Origin: Candidatus Kurthia intestinigallinarum
GTDB taxonomy: Bacteria > Bacillota > Bacilli > Bacillales_A > Planococcaceae
DNA length: 62,608 nt
NCBI RefSeq assembly: GCF_003991225.1
Contig: NZ_JTFC01000010.1
Coordinates: 1-62,608 of the forward strand
Direction of reading: 5' to 3'
Shown: positions 580-24,504 of the stretch, in pieces
Numbering within the stretch: position 1 is the stretch's first letter
Layout of the letters: each line of letters begins with the position of its first letter
Notes under the pieces: generated by a model
The model's input: only the letters and a program-made list of their open reading frames with translations
What the model was told of the DNA's origin: nothing
Database searches by the model: none
Translations under genes and position numbers: made by a program

Positions 580-725
580 TCATTTTTTTATGTCTTATGT
601 TTTTCAAGACAAGAAATATTATATGTCATAAAAAACAATTATGCAATAGTTTTTTATGATTTTTTTATTTTTTTCTTCACCAATGAAAAAAACATTGTTA
701 TATGATAGATAAAGAGGTGATTTCA

Positions 726-1721
726 TTGGGTTTTAACGTTAAAACAACTCCCTTTTCATACGAAAATTCTATCATTTCATTACCACAGCAACATACTATA
801 GAAGAAAGTGCCTGCGCTACTCTATTAACAATTGATGGCAATGCGACAAAGATGACGGGATTTTTAACTACACTTATAGAAGGAATTGCGCAGTGCTGTG
901 TATTTCCTTTTACAAAAGCGACAATTGCCATTCAGTTATTTGATACATTGATTCCTGTTATTACACTGCTACCTGGACGTGCAAATAAGTTGCTTCTACA
1001 AATTGATCAGCAAACACTCTATACAATTGGACGTACTTCATTTGTCATTCGGGATGCACAACATAATCACGATGCTGCATTTTCTACTGAAGTCGAGCAT
1101 GCTGCATGCGCTTTAAAGCAGCAACAAAAAAACGAAGCTCCAAAAGATATGCCCACCATACTACAACAATATTATGATTTTTCACGGTTAACACCGTTTA
1201 TTACTACATGGTCTATTGCTTATATGCCACGTGAAAAAGCATTGAATTTCTTAACAATTATTGAGGACTGCTGTATATTTTTATCAGCATCCTTCAAAAC
1301 CTTCGTCAAGATTCCATCATTAACCCTTCATTCTGGGCTAAAAGGTGCGAATGGCTTCTTTGATACTGCGACGCAAACGATTGGGCTTTACTATAAATAT
1401 GACCGGCCCGCGCAAATGAAGCTTGCCTTTTTCCATGAATACGGTCATCTCATTGATTTACATCAAAAACATGATGAGGTCTATGCATATAAAAGACAGC
1501 AGCTTTATGAACAGCTACAAGCATCGGAAACATTACAGCAAATTTCATCTAATACACAGCTTCCAGAGGATTATCGAAAGTATTTACTTTCTATAGAAGA
1601 AGTTTTAGCACGATTATTTGAAGGCTATGCATTTTATAAAATGACTGGCAATGTTAGCACTAAAGAATTTGCATTCACATTACCGGAGTTCCTTCTATAT
1701 GAAGAATTTTTCACAAATTAA
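726..1721 (+). CDS. Uncharacterised protein with a HExxH metallopeptidase-like motif
   Basis: I do not recognise the family. The 331-residue protein has HEYGH at about residues 237-241 (the zincin pattern HExxH) and acidic residues E291/E292 in a later helix (IEEVLARLFEGYA) that could be the third zinc ligand. No signal peptide or membrane segment is visible, so it is probably cytoplasmic. The TTG start at 726 is chosen because AAAGAGGTGA ends 5 bp before it; an in-frame ATG at 702 has no ribosome site. It stands alone between an rrn promoter and a convergent gene. Protease activity is inferred only from the motif; an inactive relative is possible. Confidence 0.7.
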   Translation: MGFNVKTTPFSYENSIISLPQQHTIEESACATLLTIDGNATKMTGFLTTLIEGIAQCCVFPFTKATIAIQLFDTLIPVITLLPGRANKLLLQIDQQTLYTIGRTSFVIRDAQHNHDAAFSTEVEHAACALKQQQKNEAPKDMPTILQQYYDFSRLTPFITTWSIAYMPREKALNFLTIIEDCCIFLSASFKTFVKIPSLTLHSGLKGANGFFDTATQTIGLYYKYDRPAQMKLAFFHEYGHLIDLHQKHDEVYAYKRQQLYEQLQASETLQQISSNTQLPEDYRKYLLSIEEVLARLFEGYAFYKMTGNVSTKEFAFTLPEFLLYEEFFTN

Positions 1722-11196: not shown

Positions 11197-14100
11197 TTAT
11201 TTCACAAAGGCTTGTTCATTTTTCATAAAGGCATCCTGTACCATGTAGTAGGATGGTTTCAGACGATAAATCGAGTTCGGCTGCTCCCAGTTTGCCCATG
11301 TATATTGTTTGAACGGACGGGTAGTATTGCCTTTTTTTGCTGGCAACGTTTGAACAACTTTGTCCTCATCATTCATAAAGGCAACACCTACGTGAATGCC
11401 GTCTACCTTTTCACGTGCCATATAATCCGGCTTATCAATATCGCCAATTACTTCCTTCAAACTTGGGTCTGAGAAGCTCATGAGCATCCACGGCACACGT
11501 AGCTCAATAAAATGCTCTTCTTCATTTATATTAAAATCAACAAGAGAATTATAGTCTTCTGCTTCAGGGTTCGCATTGCCTTCAAGTAATTTACCCGTTT
11601 CATACCCAACGAATGGGATTTTTTCTTTCGTTGTTGGGATGTTTAGTTCATTGCTTAGTACATAATTAATTTTCGTAAAATTTCCTGTATTTTTTTCAGG
11701 ATGATACGTAATATTTTCTGGATCGTATTTGCCGTAATACAGTGCATAAATATCATACTGTGTATCGACAAGTAGACGAGCATTTTTCGCTGATTTTAAC
11801 GGCGCGATAAACTCGAGTCCATTTTCAGTTTTCAACTTATAGTTATTAATCTTTGTATTACCTTGCGTCTGCTTCGTATCAAGCATGAGCATCGGATACC
11901 CCTTCGCATCAGCACTCATTTGAATTTTATAATACACATAGCGCTCATCATGCTGCATCATGAGTGACTCGATTGGCCCACTTGACTCATACATGGTCTT
12001 TGCGCCTTCCCAGTCACGATCATCCCCATCGACCTTCACCTTTAATACATCAAAGCTCAATAAGCCAAATTGCTGCTCACTCGTCTGTGCATTTGACCAA
12101 AATGGACGACGATCTGGGTCATCTAAATCCATCGTATTCCACGTCCGCTTAAACCATTCATCCTGCCAGGTAAAGATTAAGCCACCCATCATATCCTCAT
12201 GTAAAATATCCTCAAATAAATGAACGAGTGTCTCGCCTTGTTGTGTTTCAGACATATGCCCCTGATTCCAACCATTGACGTTATTATGCGTTTTCCCTCG
12301 TGATGATGGAATCCCAAACTCTGCGATTAACACCGGCATATCATGTGCTGCATGTAAATCCTTTAAATACGCTGCGTAGTTATTTTTCTTGCCACGAAAA
12401 TCGATATAATCATTGTATTGGTAATTCAGCGATTCAGGATAATACGGATACACATGATAGCTTGCGAATTGCTGTGTTTTCGTTACGTCCCCTTTTAAAT
12501 GAATAACATTCGGATTGACGGATACTAAGTCCTCCTCTGGATCAGGCTCCTCAGGATGCTCCAGTAGATCTGTCGTCACCCAGTTTGTAAAGCTTAGTGG
12601 ACGAACCCAGTTATACTTATCTTTTTCATATTTTGCGACGTAATCTAGATTTTCAGCAATCCAATGTTCAAATGGCGATGCACCCTTTGTATATACATAT
12701 GTGCCTTTATAGTCGCCAACTGCTTTGTTTTTCTTATTCGTTGACTTCACCATCACTGGGTCCCACTCAATGCCAAGCACCCAACCGATGACATACTCTG
12801 ACACATCGGCTGTATAGGCCCCTGTTGCATGCCCCTTTTTATAAGCAATCATTTCATTGCCATGAAGAATATCGACGATGTGGCGAATTTCATCACGGAA
12901 TTCCGTTGTCGCCTGCTTGTCAAAGACATTACCCTTATGAACAATTCGTTCCTCATCAATCCACGTACCATGCAACAAATAAAGCTTTTGTTCGTGTGCT
13001 TCGTTATAACGCTTCAATGCATTATAAAACCCAGGTGGTTGCACCGTATAAACACGCATCGTATTGGAGCCAAGCTTACCAATATCTTGGAACCATTTAT
13101 AATATTCATTTTCCGTAATCGCTGCCTGTCCAGGGAACGTACCGAGTTTTCCCATCCCTACATTGACGCCTTGAATTTTCATTGACTGCCATTTTCCATT
13201 CACTTGCACCTGCATATCATTGTCATGAATGCGCGACACATATTGAACTTCCTTTGGTTTTTTGAGGGCCGCTACCTTTTTATTTTTTTGTGCGGTCGTT
13301 TGGGCGAGTACCTTTTTCATCATCGGTACATATGCATCCCAGTAGAAGCCCGTTTCCTTACTAAAATGACTAATCCAACTATTCAATATCTCCACACCAA
13401 GGAATTGATAGTAATTCGGCACAGACGGTGTTACATTGAATTGCCCCGCAAAGTAATACGCTGTCGCATTGTTCATCGTCATTTTATTAACAGCGACAAA
13501 TTTTGTTGGCACACCATGTTCTTTCATTAACTGCTTCCCTGAATCCGTTAAATCCCAGTGGAAGTTTGCGAGTGTCGCTTCTGCTGATTCACTTTCAACA
13601 ATATCAAACCAGCCATTAAATGCGACGGACTCTGTTAAATCAAATGCTTTTTGACCCGCTTCGGTGTACTTCACCGTAAGTTTACTAGCCACATCCTTGT
13701 CATCCTTGAGAATAAAGTATTTCTCTTGTTCCTCATTCACAAGCACAAAGCCAGCGCCACTATACGGCCAATTTTTTTCGTTCTTTAACCAGCTCGGCAT
13801 ATCCGGATTGTCGAGTGATAACTCATTAAAATGACGGCCAATCCAGCCAGACGAATGAATGCCAAGTACACTGCTCATATGCTCACGTACCTCGGTCGTT
13901 GTTGGCGATGCGAGTGTATTAAATTCCGTTACAAGCGTAACCGCCTTATCATCTTCAAGACGTTTAAAAACCGCATTCCATTCATCCATCGTCAGCCCAC
14001 CATCGAGCTTTTTCGGCTTAGCCTGTCCTTGCTTCTCCTCATAGACACCATATGTATCTGCAATATAAATCAAATTCGTATCGTCATATGATGTCGGGAG

Positions 14101-14355
14101 TTTCCCTACAGGCTGGTCCTGCTCAGGATGATAGCCAAAGTAATCTGTTAGGGCATACGGTTCTCCCTTGTCATTTACATATTTCTCTGCTTTTAATAGC
14201 CAGTTTAACCCCTGATGCTCTTGATACTCCGTCGTTGCAACTGTTTTATCGATAATCGCAATCGAGAGTTTTTGGTCACTTTTCAATTGCCAGCCCCCAA
14301 AAATCACAAGTAAAAGCGCTATGGCCGCACCAAAAATAATCAGTAATTTTTTCAT
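11197..14355 (-). CDS. Membrane-anchored glycoside hydrolase-like protein of an exopolysaccharide operon
   Basis: This 1052-residue protein has one N-terminal membrane segment (about 5-22), then a large extracellular part. Residues about 390-740 look like a (beta/alpha)8 glycosidase of clan GH-A: GVNVGMGKLG, RVYTVQPPGFY, a possible acid/base Glu530 in GWVLGIEWDP, a possible nucleophile Glu679 in VLIAEFGIPSS, and FTWQDEWF near the barrel end. From about 770 on, VDGDDRDWEGA and DERYVYYKI resemble a family-9-like carbohydrate-binding fold. Residues 40-350 are unassigned. It is the last gene of the operon, 12 bp after the glycosyltransferase, with AAGGGGAT before the ATG. It may trim or remodel the polymer; substrate unknown. 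Confidence 0.75.
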   Translation of the reverse strand: MKKLLIIFGAAIALLLVIFGGWQLKSDQKLSIAIIDKTVATTEYQEHQGLNWLLKAEKYVNDKGEPYALTDYFGYHPEQDQPVGKLPTSYDDTNLIYIADTYGVYEEKQGQAKPKKLDGGLTMDEWNAVFKRLEDDKAVTLVTEFNTLASPTTTEVREHMSSVLGIHSSGWIGRHFNELSLDNPDMPSWLKNEKNWPYSGAGFVLVNEEQEKYFILKDDKDVASKLTVKYTEAGQKAFDLTESVAFNGWFDIVESESAEATLANFHWDLTDSGKQLMKEHGVPTKFVAVNKMTMNNATAYYFAGQFNVTPSVPNYYQFLGVEILNSWISHFSKETGFYWDAYVPMMKKVLAQTTAQKNKKVAALKKPKEVQYVSRIHDNDMQVQVNGKWQSMKIQGVNVGMGKLGTFPGQAAITENEYYKWFQDIGKLGSNTMRVYTVQPPGFYNALKRYNEAHEQKLYLLHGTWIDEERIVHKGNVFDKQATTEFRDEIRHIVDILHGNEMIAYKKGHATGAYTADVSEYVIGWVLGIEWDPVMVKSTNKKNKAVGDYKGTYVYTKGASPFEHWIAENLDYVAKYEKDKYNWVRPLSFTNWVTTDLLEHPEEPDPEEDLVSVNPNVIHLKGDVTKTQQFASYHVYPYYPESLNYQYNDYIDFRGKKNNYAAYLKDLHAAHDMPVLIAEFGIPSSRGKTHNNVNGWNQGHMSETQQGETLVHLFEDILHEDMMGGLIFTWQDEWFKRTWNTMDLDDPDRRPFWSNAQTSEQQFGLLSFDVLKVKVDGDDRDWEGAKTMYESSGPIESLMMQHDERYVYYKIQMSADAKGYPMLMLDTKQTQGNTKINNYKLKTENGLEFIAPLKSAKNARLLVDTQYDIYALYYGKYDPENITYHPEKNTGNFTKINYVLSNELNIPTTKEKIPFVGYETGKLLEGNANPEAEDYNSLVDFNINEEEHFIELRVPWMLMSFSDPSLKEVIGDIDKPDYMAREKVDGIHVGVAFMNDEDKVVQTLPAKKGNTTRPFKQYTWANWEQPNSIYRLKPSYYMVQDAFMKNEQAFVK

Positions 14356-14367
14356 CGTCGCATCCCC

Positions 14368-15759
14368 TTATAAGCCTTTTCGAACCATTTCGCCCCAGCT
14401 ACTTTTACCGCGAGCATAATTCCACAAGCCGAGTAGACGGAACCATAATGTACATGGTTTATACCAAAAGATTTCAGTGATGGCTAAGACGAATAAGCGC
14501 CAAATATCTTTTACTGATATGTAACGCTTCATTAGCCATGACTCCATAATGACAGATACCATCGAAAATAGTGCGCCATTGATAACGAACAATAAGAGTA
14601 ATAACAACGCAAACTCTAAATACACACCACCTGTGAAAAAGGCGAAAATTACATATAAGTAGCCCGCAAATTCGATAATCGGTCCTAAGCATTCGATAAA
14701 TAAGAAATACGGAAAGGCGATAAAGCCTAGCTTACCGTATTTGGGATTTGCGAAAATTTGTTTATTACGCCATAAGCTTTCCATTAACCCTTGATGCCAG
14801 CGACTACGCTGACGCTTCAGCTGCTGATACGTTTCAGGAGCCTCTGTCCAGCATACTGGATACGGTAAAAACTTAATTTTTTTAGACTTTTGTTTTTTGC
14901 GAATCAAGCGATGTAGACGCACGACAAGCTCCATATCCTCACCGATTGTATCCCGCAAGTAACCCCCTACTTCGACGACTTCCTTTTTCGAGAAAATACT
15001 AAAGGCGCCAGAAATAATAAACACCATATTGAAGCGACTAAATGTAATGCGCCCCATAAGAAAAGCACGGAAATATTCGATAACTTGCATCATCACAAGC
15101 GGCTTATCTGACATACCATAACGCATTAATGTCCCCATTTGAATATCTGAGCCATTCGCAATTTTGACATTACCACCTGCCGCAATGACATTCGGGTCCT
15201 TCACAAACGCCTCCATCACTTGTACAAGCGATGTTTCCCCTAAAATACAATCGCCATCAATCGAGCAGAAGTACGGATACTTTGATAAATTAATACCACT
15301 ATTTAATGAATCTGCTTTTCCGCCGTTTTCCTTATCAATCATTAAAATACGTGGATCAATCGTTGACTGATAAATACCGCGCACATCCTTCGACGGCAAG
15401 GTTGTCTGAATGACACGATGTACTTTTTTCATTTTAAAATGCGTTATCGCTACTTCTAACGTATCGTCCTTTGAACCATCATTTATAATGATGATTTCAT
15501 ACTCGGGGTAACGACTACTCAGCAGTGATTGGACCGTATTGATAATATTAATGCTTTCATTATAAGCTGGCACGAGTATCGACAATGGATAAACATAGTC
15601 AACATCCTGTAGCTCCTCATCTACCGACTCACGTGAAATATTGCGCCCGCGATAAAGTTCAATCAACGAGAAAATCAGCATAATCACATAGACACCAATA
15701 ACGATAAACATATAAATTAAAATAAGCGTTTGGAAAAAAAGATTAATCCAATGCCACAT
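14368..15759 (-). CDS. Processive family-2 glycosyltransferase (cellulose/hyaluronan synthase-like)
   Basis: The 463-residue membrane enzyme has two N-terminal segments, a cytoplasmic GT2 domain and several C-terminal segments. Catalytic motifs are complete: D94 (NDGS), D168xD170 (SIDGD), E274-D275 (GED) and QxxRW (QRSRW, 317-321), the set for processive synthases that extend and export a polysaccharide. No PilZ domain is attached. The ATG at 15759 is 8 bp from GGAGG; an ATG two codons upstream is too close to it. It overlaps the end of the HEAT gene, so the products are probably made together. The sugar is unknown. Confidence 0.88.
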   Translation of the reverse strand: MWHWINLFFQTLILIYMFIVIGVYVIMLIFSLIELYRGRNISRESVDEELQDVDYVYPLSILVPAYNESINIINTVQSLLSSRYPEYEIIIINDGSKDDTLEVAITHFKMKKVHRVIQTTLPSKDVRGIYQSTIDPRILMIDKENGGKADSLNSGINLSKYPYFCSIDGDCILGETSLVQVMEAFVKDPNVIAAGGNVKIANGSDIQMGTLMRYGMSDKPLVMMQVIEYFRAFLMGRITFSRFNMVFIISGAFSIFSKKEVVEVGGYLRDTIGEDMELVVRLHRLIRKKQKSKKIKFLPYPVCWTEAPETYQQLKRQRSRWHQGLMESLWRNKQIFANPKYGKLGFIAFPYFLFIECLGPIIEFAGYLYVIFAFFTGGVYLEFALLLLLLFVINGALFSMVSVIMESWLMKRYISVKDIWRLFVLAITEIFWYKPCTLWFRLLGLWNYARGKSSWGEMVRKGL

Positions 15760-16789
15760 GCTCATGTCCTCCTTTCAGATAAGTATGAATGGAATCATGC
15801 ATATACGCATCATCAATCGTCTCAAGCATTCGCTCAAACATCTCTTGTCCCTTTGGATATTGTGCAATCGCATGAATCGCAGCCTGACGTACAAGAAACG
15901 ACTTATCCTGCGCTAGCACAACTAAATAAGCAGACACATCTTCGAGCTTATACTGGGATGCAAGTTTCGCAAACAGCATCCGGCTCTCTACATCTTCTGA
16001 GTAAAAATACTCTTCAAAATCCATCAATGATTTCTCGGTTCCAATGGCACTAAGCACCTGTAATGCTTCGTCTCGCACAATCTGCACATCATGATGGAGT
16101 AGCTCGTGCACAACAAGACTTGAATACGCCAATTGGCGCTTCGCCATCACCTTTAATGCTGCCACCAGCCATTCGATATCCGTATGCTCATGGTCGACAA
16201 TATCGTAAATTCTATCATCGGTCATACAATTCACAATCATCGTTACTTGATTTGCGGCAAGTTTTGATTTATGGTGCACGTAAAATTTGTACGTGCTCTC
16301 TTCCTCTAATGTCGCAACGATTTTTAGACCAATAAAGCATTCCTTCAGCGTAATATGCTTTTTCAGCAGCATTTCTTTTACCTCTGGCAAGAGTGAAATA
16401 ATATGAAAATCCATAATTTGATACAGCGCATTAATACGCTTTGTCGTATCATTACCGCGTAACTGTCGTCGATATGTTGCGCTATAATACGTATCCATAT
16501 ACTGATAAATACGCGTTAAAATGGCCTCATCTTCGACATAAGCAATATAGCTTTCTACAATTTCTTCAATTGCTTCAAATTCTTCATTCGTATTAGCAAT
16601 CACGCAACTGTCATCGTCTCCTTCAATAAAATAGCGATAGCACGCGGCCGTATGTTCCTGCACATCCCTTTTAATTTGTTGCTGTCTTTTTTGATAATTT
16701 TTCGTATCAATTGATACATAAAGCATAATCAAAACTAGCACAATAAATGCCGCCACTACGCCATAAGAAAGCCATACAACACCTGTCAT
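15743..16789 (-). CDS. Membrane-anchored HEAT-repeat protein
   Basis: The 348-residue protein has one N-terminal membrane helix (about 4-26), then an all-helical cytoplasmic region. Its C-terminal half shows HEAT-like repeats, e.g. VRDEALQVLSAIG and VRQAAIHAIAQYP. Such repeats serve as protein docking surfaces. Its start overlaps the regulator stop (ATGA), and its end overlaps the glycosyltransferase start by 17 bp, which suggests translational coupling. A scaffold joining the regulator to the synthase is inferred from position only. Confidence 0.8.
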   Translation of the reverse strand: MTGVVWLSYGVVAAFIVLVLIMLYVSIDTKNYQKRQQQIKRDVQEHTAACYRYFIEGDDDSCVIANTNEEFEAIEEIVESYIAYVEDEAILTRIYQYMDTYYSATYRRQLRGNDTTKRINALYQIMDFHIISLLPEVKEMLLKKHITLKECFIGLKIVATLEEESTYKFYVHHKSKLAANQVTMIVNCMTDDRIYDIVDHEHTDIEWLVAALKVMAKRQLAYSSLVVHELLHHDVQIVRDEALQVLSAIGTEKSLMDFEEYFYSEDVESRMLFAKLASQYKLEDVSAYLVVLAQDKSFLVRQAAIHAIAQYPKGQEMFERMLETIDDAYMHDSIHTYLKGGHEHVALD

Positions 16790-17613
16790 TTATGTGCCCT
16801 CTTCATTAATTTTTGTTTAACTTGCGCGCTTAACACGCCGAGATTAAACGGGCGTATTATGTAGGCATCTACGCCATGCTCATACGCTGAAATTTGATCC
16901 TCAGCTGCAGGTAACCGAGACATTAAGAAAATCGAAAACTTCCGGTCATTCGGTAAATCACGTAGTTCACTGACGACTTGCAGACCATTTTTTCGTGGCA
17001 ATTTTGCGTTAAGTAGCACGATATGTTCGTGCTCTGATTGATACCAATCAGACGCCAAAAAAGCTTCTCCATCTGAAAATGTCTGAAGCGCAATTTCCAC
17101 ATTCGGAAGCTTAATCGTATGAATGGCATTTTCAAGCAAATGACGAGCTACATCATTTGCTTCAACAATGCTAACTTTTTTCTTCATTTTTTTGCGCTGA
17201 CTAAAACGCGTACTAATATTTTTTTCAAAGATAGTTGTAGTTGTCGGTAGCTGTTCTATTAGCTCCTCTTTAATGAATTGAAAATCTGCTACTTTCTGGC
17301 GCAATTCACAAATGGATGCTTGCCACGTTAGTTGTGGAAAATCTCGTTCTAAACGCTTCAAATAAAATTGCGCATCTTTTTGCGTTGCTTCATATAATAC
17401 AATGCCTATTACATCCTTTGATAGTAAAAAATATAAGTTACTTGAGCGTGCAGTTTCAAGAAGTATTTGTTGTAGCTTCTCAAATGGCGTCTCGCCAACT
17501 GGACGCAAAGCAATAACTGATACAACAATAGCTTGTCGATCAATCTGATTTTGAAAAAATTGAAAAATCCTTTTTACTTCAGATTCAGATATGAGTTTCG
17601 GTAATTCTCCCAT
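16786..17613 (-). CDS. Regulator with degenerate GGDEF-like domain and pseudo-receiver domain
   Basis: The 275-residue soluble protein has two parts. Residues about 15-125 look like a GGDEF fold in which the signature is SKDVI (65-69) and the position of the RxxD inhibitory site reads RSSN (56-59), so cyclase activity is unlikely. Residues about 145-270 form a receiver domain whose phosphoacceptor Asp is Asn202 (LLNAKLPRKNG) and whose conserved Lys is Arg254 (YIIRPF), while Ser232 is kept. Both domains therefore look like non-catalytic sensors or docking modules. The ATG at 17613 follows GTGAGG by 8 bp; the upstream TTG at 17646 has no site. First gene of the exopolysaccharide-type operon. 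Confidence 0.8.
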   Translation of the reverse strand: MGELPKLISESEVKRIFQFFQNQIDRQAIVVSVIALRPVGETPFEKLQQILLETARSSNLYFLLSKDVIGIVLYEATQKDAQFYLKRLERDFPQLTWQASICELRQKVADFQFIKEELIEQLPTTTTIFEKNISTRFSQRKKMKKKVSIVEANDVARHLLENAIHTIKLPNVEIALQTFSDGEAFLASDWYQSEHEHIVLLNAKLPRKNGLQVVSELRDLPNDRKFSIFLMSRLPAAEDQISAYEHGVDAYIIRPFNLGVLSAQVKQKLMKRAHK

Positions 17614-17713
17614 CTTCCTAACCTCACTTTCACTAATAATATGCAAAAAATACTATACCCATTTTTTCACATTTTTAAATATTTTCGGTCCTTTTTCCTA
17701 AAAATGAATCTTT

Positions 17714-18766
17714 TTACCTATTTTGATAAGGTGCTTGTTGATAACGATAAAACGGCTTATGTTTTGTATTGTCCATCGGGCGATGATAAATCGCCGCTGT
17801 CGCTGGGGACATCGGTGGTAAAAGCCACGCCCAGTTGCCTGTCACCTCACGCCCTGCCTGTTGCTCCTGTTTTTCAAATAGAAGAAACTGTTCAACCGCC
17901 GTATGATGGTCGACAATCGATACGCCGTCTTCCTTATATGAATACAATACCGCACGATTTAATTCGACAAGTGCGTAGTCCTGCCAAAGCGTCATATTTT
18001 TAGACGTATCAAGGCCCATCTTCTCTGCAATAATCGGTAGCATATTGTAGCGTTCTGAATCGGCCAGATTTCGAGCACCAATTTCTGTGCCCATATACCA
18101 GCCATTAAACGGAACGGATACAAAATCTAATCCGCCAATTTCAACCTTCATATCTGAAATCATCGGTACAGCATACCATTTCAAGCCAAGCTCACGGAAC
18201 CATTCAAGCGTCGGGTGACGTAGCTCTACTTCTAAAATATGCGTCTTTGGAATATCAAAAACGACGGGTGCCGCATCCCCTACTTGTATAACAAGTGGTA
18301 AAACATCAAAACGACCACCCGCACCTTGCCAACCAAGCTCTTGGCATTTCTGCGTGAATTCAACAGAGGCTGGATCTCCAATAATCTCATTTGCTGTTTT
18401 ATAACCAGCATAACGAATAAGCTGATGATTCCAAATGCGCACACTTGGATCAAAGACTGAAATCGTCGAACGAATTTTCCCACCATTTGTCGCGTAGTCA
18501 ATATGCGCCAGTAACGCCTCATAGATTTCTTGTACTGTCTTTAAATGTCGTCGGTCAAATGTATGCAATGATTTCCAGAAAAGACGACCAATGCATTTGT
18601 TACTATTACGCCATGCAAGCTTTAGCGCGTAATCCATTTCTTCTATTGTGTAATCGACAGCTCCTGCAGCTGTGAATTGCTGTAAACGCTCTTCAACATA
18701 CGACTGTGCTAGTTTATTTTCCGCTGTGTATTGTTCTAAAAAGATTCGTACTTGTTCTAACAACAT
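17714..18766 (-). CDS. nos: Bacterial nitric oxide synthase, oxygenase domain
   Basis: The 350-residue protein is the heme oxygenase part of NOS, as in Bacillus, and lacks a fused reductase. It converts arginine to citrulline and NO using redox partners of the cell. The heme Cys is C58 in WRNSNKCIGR, and NGWYMGTEIG contains the substrate-binding Glu. The ATG at 18766 with AGGGAAGTG upstream gives a family-typical length; a start at 18841 would add 25 unrelated residues. No terminator is visible in the 100 bp before the exopolysaccharide operon, so read-through is possible. Confidence 0.95.
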   Translation of the reverse strand: MLLEQVRIFLEQYTAENKLAQSYVEERLQQFTAAGAVDYTIEEMDYALKLAWRNSNKCIGRLFWKSLHTFDRRHLKTVQEIYEALLAHIDYATNGGKIRSTISVFDPSVRIWNHQLIRYAGYKTANEIIGDPASVEFTQKCQELGWQGAGGRFDVLPLVIQVGDAAPVVFDIPKTHILEVELRHPTLEWFRELGLKWYAVPMISDMKVEIGGLDFVSVPFNGWYMGTEIGARNLADSERYNMLPIIAEKMGLDTSKNMTLWQDYALVELNRAVLYSYKEDGVSIVDHHTAVEQFLLFEKQEQQAGREVTGNWAWLLPPMSPATAAIYHRPMDNTKHKPFYRYQQAPYQNR

Positions 18767-19130
18767 CTTCACTTCCCTAAAATAAGTCTGTCTTAATAAT
18801 GTGCACTCTGTTGTTGATTGTACAATCTTTCTTCCTCGCAAAAAATATGTATTTTATATCCATGTAAAGAAGTTGTCACAAATGGACATTTGCCTTTCGC
18901 ATACTTCTAGATTTTTAACTTTAAAAAAACAATAATTATCAATTAGAGCACTTATTATCACTATTTTTATGATGTTAATGAGAAAATCACTTAATTTATT
19001 TTAAAAGAAAAATAGCGATTTTTAATCATTTCAAATGTTTTTTTGCACATTAAAAGGGTATAAATTAATGTTGACCTATTATAATAAGGAGAAATGTCGA
19101 TTTGCACATTTTTCACTTAACTATCATAAT
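18767..19130. other. Spacer between nos and catalase
   Basis: AT-rich divergent control region without a gene. Partial inverted repeats such as ATAATTATCAATTA (about 18931-18945) resemble half of a Fur-family box but are too weak to call. The catalase promoter lies in its right end. Confidence 0.4.
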
Positions 19131-22783: not shown

Positions 22784-24358
22784 CTATTTAGCTAGGATAA
22801 CTTGGTTCCTGCCATGTTCTTTTGCATAATAGAGCGCATCATCTGCCTTTTCAAGTAATTGTTTCGGATGATGTGCATCCACTGGAAATGTCGCTACACC
22901 TGCTGACAATGTCACCTGAATGGCATGCGGTGCAGCCGTTGATTCTACATCCTGACGCAGTAGCTCCGCCATTGTCATCGCAATATCACTCGGTGTATTC
23001 GGTAGTAAAATCACGAACTCTTCTCCGCCATAGCGGCAGCATACATCTTCACTACGTGCGACATTCTCCATTTTGCGTGCTAAAAACTGTAGTACCTCAT
23101 CCCCCACGCCATGCCCATAGGTGTCATTAATTGATTTAAATTTATCAATATCAATTAAAATAAGCGAATACATACGCTGCTCAATATGCCAGCTATTCAT
23201 TAACTCATCAATGGTACGACGATTCGTCAGTCCTGTTAGCGCATCAGTTGCCGATTGGTCTCGGAAAAAATGCACTTGGTTGTGTAAATGTGAGAAGCTC
23301 GACATCAGCGATTGCTTTAATTGAATTGCCTCATAATACCAAGCCGTGACACTTTGGAAGTTTTTCTGCGCAGCATCCGCCTCATCGCGGTCTACCACTG
23401 TAATATCCGCAAGTTCCTGCAGTGGCTTTGCGATTTTACGTGCAAGCATAATGACAATTACTAAAGCTAACAATAATAAAGGCAATCCAACAAGCATCAT
23501 ATGATTGACCATTTCACCTGCTGGTGCTAATGCTAGTTCCGTTGGGCGCTGTGTAATAACACCCCAGCCGCTAATTTCCATCTTCGCATAGCCTACGAGC
23601 ATATCTGTATTTTTCGTATTTACAACGCGTTCGGCCCCTGTCTCTGAATCGGTCGTTAGCATTTTTTTAACGACCGTATTTTTCATCACATTATCGCCAA
23701 TACGTGTCTTATCTTCATGATAAATAATTTGACCGTCCGCATCGACAACATACGCATACGAGCCATCCTCATACGGATGCTTGCCAAGCAATTGGTTTAA
23801 GACATTATTTTCTTTTAGATAAATCGTGCCACCTAACACACCTAAAAAGCGATTATTGGCATCATAAATTGGTGTCGAAATAAAGATGATTTCACGCCCG
23901 GAAGTCGTTGTTTTATACGGCTTTGAAATCATTGGTTTTCGTTCTTCAAGCGCTTTTTTCGACGCCCTAGATGTCACCTTAATTCCTTTTAAATTTAGTG
24001 ACTGCGGCGAAGTAGCAATGATTTTTCCTTTTGCATTCATTACAATAATGGAATTAAAAGCGGTCGAGCCGCGGCGTAATAAATCCGCCTTGCGTTCTAA
24101 TCGTTCTCCGTCATCCATATAAGCACTCATCTCAGTCGCATTTACATTTAATAACTTAAATGTTTCCTCTAAATAACCATTTGCACTTGATGCAAGCTTC
24201 TCAGCATATACTCGATGGGTTTCAAGTGTATTTTCTGTGAGTGTCTTTTCGTTCATACGATAACCACTCCAAATACTTACCAACGACGTTAAAAACACCG
24301 CTAAAAAGGCAACACCCATAATTAAATATTGCAATTTAAACGTTGTATATTTTTTCAT
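22784..24358 (-). CDS. Membrane diguanylate cyclase with extracellular dCache sensor
   Basis: The 524-residue protein has a membrane helix at about 12-32, an extracellular dCache-like sensor (about 35-285), a second helix (about 288-306) and a C-terminal GGDEF domain. The active site is intact (GGEEF, 444-448, after DIDKFKSINDTYGHGVGD), and an RxxD inhibitory site (R435-D438) lies five residues before it. It should make c-di-GMP under feedback control. The ATG at 24358 follows TTGAGGTC; an earlier start at 24391 has no site. It is the only active-looking cyclase in the window and could feed the exopolysaccharide operon. Confidence 0.92.
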   Translation of the reverse strand: MKKYTTFKLQYLIMGVAFLAVFLTSLVSIWSGYRMNEKTLTENTLETHRVYAEKLASSANGYLEETFKLLNVNATEMSAYMDDGERLERKADLLRRGSTAFNSIIVMNAKGKIIATSPQSLNLKGIKVTSRASKKALEERKPMISKPYKTTTSGREIIFISTPIYDANNRFLGVLGGTIYLKENNVLNQLLGKHPYEDGSYAYVVDADGQIIYHEDKTRIGDNVMKNTVVKKMLTTDSETGAERVVNTKNTDMLVGYAKMEISGWGVITQRPTELALAPAGEMVNHMMLVGLPLLLLALVIVIMLARKIAKPLQELADITVVDRDEADAAQKNFQSVTAWYYEAIQLKQSLMSSFSHLHNQVHFFRDQSATDALTGLTNRRTIDELMNSWHIEQRMYSLILIDIDKFKSINDTYGHGVGDEVLQFLARKMENVARSEDVCCRYGGEEFVILLPNTPSDIAMTMAELLRQDVESTAAPHAIQVTLSAGVATFPVDAHHPKQLLEKADDALYYAKEHGRNQVILAK

Positions 24359-24504
24359 TGTAGACCTCAATTTTTTGTGACTTATACGCATTTTAACATA
24401 CCCTTTTTACCTAATGTAAGCAATATAGCAAGTACTTAATTATTTAATTAACTGTCATTTTTTAGACTTTCATCGTATCTTTTCCTATAAATATCCAATT
24501 TGTA

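Follow-up and report, generated by a model that had tools for sequence, protein, structure and literature searches.

What does an operon make that places a degenerate GGDEF-receiver protein, a HEAT-repeat protein, a processive-type glycosyltransferase and a glycosidase-like surface protein side by side, and is it one of the exopolysaccharide systems already described? The question is raised by four genes in a 62,608-nucleotide stretch of Candidatus Kurthia intestinigallinarum (contig NZ_JTFC01000010.1; the whole stretch is hereafter called the window). The operon is real and conserved, and most likely represents an undescribed variant of the synthase-dependent exopolysaccharide systems linked to cyclic diguanylate (c-di-GMP). 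We consider it probable that it specifies a synthase-dependent exopolysaccharide system in which a family 2 glycosyltransferase (GT2) would receive a c-di-GMP signal that is relayed by a soluble receptor and then by a HEAT adaptor.

The gene set is conserved and its parts are fused in relatives

The first-pass annotation had described a soluble pseudo-GGDEF/pseudo-receiver protein, a membrane HEAT protein, a GT2 with processive motifs and a 1052-residue anchored glycosidase-like protein, all encoded on one strand. The four open reading frames (ORFs) are in place (Table 1), overlapping by 4 bases (regulator/HEAT) and 23 bases (HEAT/GT2) or lying 12 bases apart (GT2/surface gene).

A contig scan detected 503 relatives of the surface protein, the best 80 of which, together with the window, gave 81 sources (loci are denoted by L and a number). 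GT2 is encoded in 74 sources and HEAT in 73, and all 73 HEAT genes adjoin a GT2 gene; of the eight sources without HEAT, seven have neither gene in the stretch, and in L034 the contig ends at this point. The surface gene lies on the same strand as HEAT in 49 of the 73 and on the opposite strand in 24. The flanks are not shared, since the next commonest neighbor cluster occurs in only 22 of the 81 sources.

Wider draws extended the family. The surface-protein profile was matched in 110 of 398 Bacilli genomes, where separate genes often encode the two halves of the protein. In a further 81 loci, five of six stand-alone N-terminal domains (N-domains) and 50 of 51 stand-alone glycoside hydrolase (GH) proteins lie near GT2 and HEAT, the remaining GH protein being near GT2 only. 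At the level of gene organization, the surface protein is built of separable modules. A GT2 of the same family was found at E ≤ 1e-60 in 31 of 398 genomes drawn from the phylum; of the 20 of these that were viewed, 18 (all but L247 and L248) have HEAT next to GT2 or fused with it, and 10 encode an N-domain and/or GH in the stretch. A plasmid of Deinococcus radiophilus carries GH, HEAT and GT2 genes consecutively. Thus delimited by profile searches, the family spans the Bacillota and a Deinococcus, and the Kurthia set is one branch of it. The set, whose order the first-pass annotation had proposed to look for in Planococcaceae genomes, is conserved far beyond the strain and is not specific to Planococcaceae.

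Fusions tie the encoded parts together. In L243, HEAT, GT2 and the N-domain form one 1378-residue chain behind a GGDEF-REC-DivIVA gene (REC, receiver); in L245, HEAT and GT2 form one chain behind a lactamase-GGDEF-REC gene; and in L237, GH and HEAT are fused behind a GGDEF gene. The order of HEAT, GT2 and N-domain in L243 fits an arrangement inside, in and outside the membrane.

Spread by plasmids was considered and rejected, a relative being present in 3 of 72,556 plasmid records. On a plasmid of Planococcus maritimus (L159:4940-12375), genes for a polyphosphate-polymerase domain, DUF4956 and CotH precede GH-HEAT-GT2.

The regulators include intact cyclases and receptor-like remnants

In the window regulator, Pfam recognizes the receiver (Response_reg, E 1.3e-9), and GGDEF scores below threshold (E 0.094; 12.9 bits, cut-off 23.8). 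When 45 regulator rows were compared by hhalign with nine real GGDEF domains from the same genome, the match had a probability of 96.8 and an E-value of 2.3e-10, with 123 columns in register; by profile, the pseudo-GGDEF assignment is firm at the family level. PleD is among the solved relatives recovered by the regulator profile. The fold model has a predicted local distance difference test score (pLDDT) of 92.4, and its best 50 Foldseek matches are solely receivers; the GGDEF assignment therefore rests on sequence profiles. A simple hydropathy count found no hydrophobic segment in the regulator. In its receiver, Asn202 replaces the phospho-Asp and Arg254 replaces the Lys (numbered from the ATG).

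The HEAT-adjacent regulators number 64, of which 50 were aligned, long and truncated ones being left out. Eleven have a GGDEF-like motif, altered in three (L081, L094, L099), together with an intact phospho-Asp; nine of the 11 retain the RxxD of the inhibitory site (I-site), and L076, the one put through Pfam, has the architecture Hpt-REC-GGDEF-REC. The first-pass description of a pseudo-GGDEF/pseudo-receiver holds for the window, and regulators of other branches have an intact GGDEF motif. The other 53 regulators are degenerate, two being truncated at the I-site. The 51 readable ones have R..D in 43 cases, R..N in four (all Kurthia) and P..S or P..A in four.

In the Lysinibacillus-centered branch, the regulators have lost the cyclase motif and, in nearly every case, the phospho-Asp. 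We counted I-site invariance over 47 of the 64, made up of L029 and the regulators whose phospho-site holds Asn or Ser, which leaves the four P..S/P..A rows outside this count. The I-site Arg and Asp are invariant in all 43 non-Kurthia rows and in 24 of 24 representatives below 60% identity, and they are two of the five fully invariant columns among 145 scored. A second Arg is invariant (47/47), lying 29 residues past the Asp in 42 rows, 28 in four and 30 in one; nine intact-motif rows also have Arg at this position, and the other six readable rows do not. RxxD plus second Arg in a GGDEF fold that lacks the GGDEF motif, the pattern expected of a degenerate-GGDEF receptor, is seen in 43 of 43 non-Kurthia rows, and Kurthia has RxxN. 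Bacillus cereus PelD contacts c-di-GMP through R363, D366 and R395, with 29 residues from Asp to second Arg, and Ala at these positions abolished detectable binding (PMC7112168).

A quick maximum-likelihood tree of 104 GT2 proteins, supported by the Shimodaira–Hasegawa-like approximate likelihood ratio test only, places the receptor-like group within one 49-row branch (support 100), where Kurthia sits close to the base; the 11 GGDEF-like cases fall in another branch, of 23 rows (support 89). The simplest history suggested by these sequences is that an enzyme turned receptor in the Lysinibacillus-type branch. The GGDEF motif was lost more than once, however, and the rows counted are not independent events. 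In a set of 12 regulators taken from loci farther away in the family, four have strict RxxD and GG[DE]EF (L154, L156, L179, L234), L155 has GGDEF without RxxD, L230 has AGDEF, and six have no such motif.

The approximately 270-residue regulators of L140–L199 have Glu at the phospho-Asp position in 22 of 41 cases, as if locked in an active-like state, and Asp in 19. Their N-terminal domain, in the GH-HEAT-GT2-REC branch, was tried as a pseudo-GGDEF domain and not adopted (probability 51, E 1.5e-4).

c-di-GMP and the Kurthia regulator

The genome encodes 18 GGDEF matches over the cut-off (two with an internal stop), five EAL and three PilZ domains and, judged by this inventory, possesses a c-di-GMP network. 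Its regulator has R56 and R87, with Asn59 where relatives have Asp, which makes c-di-GMP control uncertain for this strain. For the family, such control is likely from the residue patterns; for the Kurthia strain, it is a weaker inference than for the relatives. An alternative to which we give slightly less than even chances is that the Kurthia synthase works while the regulator senses nothing and serves as a fixed scaffold, control being transcriptional or absent. The I-site Asp has become Asn in all four Kurthia, and the phospho-Asp and Lys of the receiver are changed too. Between Kurthia species, divergence is also faster in the regulator and HEAT than in GT2: identity to L021 and L022 is 81% for GT2, 48–52% for the regulator and 43–45% for HEAT. 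Against a mere scaffold, both I-site Arg residues are kept in the four Kurthia, and the gene stays in place and open. In K. huakuii (L020), identity is 94% for GT2, 83% for the surface protein and 71–72% for regulator and HEAT.

Synthase, HEAT protein and surface protein

The GT2 (Glycos_transf_2, E 2.2e-21) carries D96, D170xD172, E276-D277 and Q319xxRW323, all invariant in an alignment of 71 of the 73 GT2 rows (L021 and L067 are split); by its residues it has the processive-type set D, DxD, ED and QxxRW. Pfam found no PilZ domain in it. No other protein of the genome matches its family profile over the full length; a second GT2, which has a PilZ domain, matches partially (E 1.4e-14).

The HEAT protein (HEAT_2, E 1.9e-8; 72 of 73 rows aligned, L057 being cut) has a single N-terminal anchor by hydropathy. 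Topology was predicted from a simple hydropathy and charge count rather than by a trained predictor. Lys and Arg are more numerous after the HEAT anchor than before it in 65 of 65 rows (of 73; proteins shorter than 330 residues were left out), so the bulk is placed inside the cell. In the surface protein, one N-terminal anchor is predicted in 80 of 80 rows; Lys and Arg average 2.4 ahead of the anchor and 1.35 behind it, an excess that places the bulk of this protein outside.

The surface protein has no Pfam match above the cut-off; SIR2_2 (E 0.01, below the cut-off) was taken as chance. Its model (pLDDT 89.4) comprises the anchor, an α/β N-domain of about 350 residues, a TIM barrel and, at the C terminus, a β region. 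In Foldseek, GH157 ranks first, followed mostly by GH2 enzymes; TM-scores are low and the root-mean-square deviation is high over the whole chain, and the matches therefore indicate clan, not substrate. As modeled, the barrel has the hallmarks of clan GH-A, a TIM fold in which strands 4 and 7 each carry a Glu. All 80 aligned rows (of 81; L067 is split) share the catalytic E530 and E679 as well as R434, H634, Y636 and W730, and both Glu residues are kept in 17 members of a wider 19-member GH set that includes Deinococcus. The profile of stand-alone GH proteins matched only GH157 in the PDB (E 0.012), and in Pfam GH113 was matched by two of the 19 members (best E 0.005), below the cut-off. Profile searches with the N-domain gave no meaningful Pfam or PDB match. 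In L097 (5585-6637), a separate N-domain gene adjoins regulator-HEAT-GT2, and a full-length GH protein is encoded apart, on the other strand.

The GT2 might instead make a short or lipid-linked cell-wall glycan, with no secreted exopolysaccharide. GT2 families also produce such glycans, and the set encodes no outer wall anchor or export protein; the processive-type motifs are complete, however, the best named profile, though below its cut-off, is PgaC/IcaA, and the set includes an extracellular glycosidase, which together make this reading quite improbable.

The nature of the polymer

In the GH-HEAT-GT2-REC branch, 40 fetched stretches, mostly from two families, contain a nucleoside diphosphate (NDP)-sugar dehydrogenase in 36 cases, GlmS in 19 and a GlmU-like gene in 17. 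This dehydrogenase is above the cut-off of the general NDP-sugar dehydrogenase profile; with UDP-ManNAc dehydrogenase profiles it reaches 251–278 bits, below their cut-offs, versus 146 with TuaD. These genes hint at an N-acetylhexosamine (HexNAc)-uronate chain in that branch. Extending a HexNAc or HexNAc-uronate chain to the whole family, Kurthia included, would draw on the same genes, yet these loci come mostly from two families and the Kurthia operon contains no NDP-sugar dehydrogenase, GlmS or GlmU-like gene; we regard the extension as unlikely. Two Kurthia NDP-sugar dehydrogenases are encoded on other contigs, one about 3.5 kb from a PilZ-GT2 gene. A HexNAc-uronate polymer was rejected as an assignment for Kurthia, the evidence coming from another branch only.

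In Lysinibacillus, a second c-di-GMP-type polysaccharide cluster lies next to the operon (L043:13357-19168; also L044, L048, L049, L053 and L061), with an NDP-sugar dehydrogenase, a polysaccharide deacetylase, a NodC-like PilZ-GT2, a PgaB-like protein and, in L048, a GH18. Its dehydrogenase was not used as substrate evidence because it is part of that PilZ-GT2/deacetylase cluster.

Comparison with known systems

The operon would work like Pel or Pss, yet the defining features that were compared for Yda/Pss, Pel, Pga and Bcs are absent from it. Yda (YdaJKLMN) of Bacillus subtilis has five genes, including a glycosyl hydrolase and a membrane-bound c-di-GMP receptor (PMC13274460), and Listeria PssE is a degenerate GGDEF protein with RxxD five residues ahead of the dead motif (PMC4125290). 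PssA-E and Yda resemble the present family as Gram-positive exopolysaccharide operons with a degenerate GGDEF I-site receptor, a role that is putative here. That the operon is a diverged member of this type is nevertheless highly improbable. The common logic of a degenerate GGDEF receptor with RxxD, a GT2 and a surface glycosidase speaks for it; against it, the receptor-like protein here has no membrane anchor and carries a receiver, HEAT is present, the glycosidase is of clan GH-A, and Yda has five genes. The first-pass reading of the set as a probable polysaccharide operon distinct from Yda/Pss is supported by these features.

The Pel operon of B. cereus (pelDEADAFG) likewise has a degenerate GGDEF protein with Arg, Asp and a second Arg 29 residues on. 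The synthase here is a GT2, the operon's only transferase, in place of PelF/PelG, and there is no deacetylase in the set. PelE, a helper of the tetratricopeptide repeat type, bears a likeness to HEAT, and PelF is a GT4 acting with PelG. Among named NCBIfam profiles, the GT2 best matches PgaC/IcaA, the poly-N-acetylglucosamine synthase (TIGR03937), at 148.2 bits, far below the cut-off of 422, and the set contains no PgaD/IcaD or deacetylase gene. Bacterial cellulose synthase is likewise set apart by the CelA score (48.9 bits; cut-off 699) and the missing PilZ domain. PleD-type response regulators also combine REC and GGDEF in one chain, whereas the window order is GGDEF, then REC, both degenerate. 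Judged from titles and abstract openings, none of the literature matches listed describes a HEAT-GT2 exopolysaccharide operon or a locus that the set would match. Overall, the earlier interpretation is partly supported.

A model of the system

The gene set, its conservation, the fusions, the residue patterns and the domain identities are read from sequence, whereas topology and folds are predictions; from these elements we infer polymer synthesis, c-di-GMP binding, a role of HEAT as transmitter, and trimming. The GT2 would polymerize a sugar nucleotide at the cytosolic face and pass the chain through its own membrane helices. The membrane-anchored HEAT protein would sit on the cytosolic side of the GT2 and couple it to the soluble GGDEF-REC regulator, and outside, the surface protein would handle the emerging chain, which its GH-A domain probably cuts. 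The input of the family would be c-di-GMP. Some branches have a cyclase as the regulator; in the Bacillus/Lysinibacillus-type branch, the domain would have become a receptor, keeping the I-site and losing the enzyme. The Kurthia regulator, with one I-site residue changed, may be a weak binder or a fixed scaffold.

Several observations weigh against this model. The GH gene stands without GT2 and HEAT in seven of the 81 sources; distribution within Kurthia is patchy, the surface protein being present in four of eight genomes, this one included; the distant GH relatives in L159 and L246 are without both catalytic Glu residues; the four Rossellomorea-type regulators (P..S/P..A) have no I-site and an intact receiver; and the I-site Asp is replaced by Asn in four of four Kurthia species examined.

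Whether the family is a further class of exopolysaccharide machine in Bacillota and Deinococcota we regard as evenly balanced. In such a class, c-di-GMP would act on a PilZ-less GT2 through a soluble protein of the GGDEF-REC type and, next in line, a HEAT adaptor; the input of the regulator would have switched in evolution from a phosphorelay-driven cyclase to a phospho-receiver only (I-site lost, receiver intact) or to a c-di-GMP receptor only (receiver dead, I-site intact). Should the model above hold, the gene set supplies a candidate for a matrix sugar, and a means of testing it, in many genera that have been little studied (Lysinibacillus, Ureibacillus, Sporosarcina, Domibacillus, Paenibacillus and others). 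It also presents a natural series, with a cyclase still intact, a receptor-like remnant or a phospho-receiver at the same place in the operon, which opens the step from enzyme to receptor to direct study. Two further additions are an extracellular domain with no relative in Pfam or the PDB and a GH-A group that no Pfam family matches above the cut-off.

Organization of the locus

Table 1 Features of the operon in the window.
Feature	Position	Strand	Length and basis
Regulator, pseudo-GGDEF then pseudo-receiver, soluble	16786..17613	-	275 aa from ATG; Pfam, profile alignment, model
I-site remnant R56-S-S-N59 in the pseudo-GGDEF domain (RxxD in relatives)	17437..17448	-	Alignment
R87, third I-site-like residue, 28 residues past N59	17353..17355	-	Alignment
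Asn202 replacing the receiver phospho-Asp	17008..17010	-	Alignment (ATG numbering)
HEAT-repeat protein, N-terminal anchor, bulk predicted cytosolic	15743..16789	-	348 aa; Pfam, hydropathy
GT2 synthase, D/DxD/ED/QxxRW motifs and membrane helices	14368..15765	-	465 aa; Pfam, alignment
Anchored surface protein: N-domain (~residues 30-350), clan GH-A barrel, C-terminal β-rich region	11197..14355	-	1052 aa; model, alignment

The regulator could alternatively start at a TTG at 17646, giving 286 residues; the ATG at 17613 is favored because it is preceded by AGTGAGGT, as judged by eye. The operon has a G+C content of 40.4%, versus 39.8% for the window. Matches to a sigma-70-like promoter are not commoner than in shuffled sequence (21 versus 26 in shuffles). 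A candidate sigma-B promoter, GGGTAT at 17655-17660, was attractive in that Yda is under SigB control, and was rejected as unconserved among the four Kurthia.

Elsewhere in the window, a 339-residue ORF at 702-1721 (+) is without a Pfam match, and a dCache-GGDEF protein with a strong GGDEF match is encoded at 22784-24391 (-), some 5 kb upstream of the operon. Nearer, 100 bases upstream on the same strand, is a gene for a nitric oxide synthase oxygenase (Pfam NO_synthase; 17714-18841, -), whose cluster is equally placed in L020, L021 and L022.

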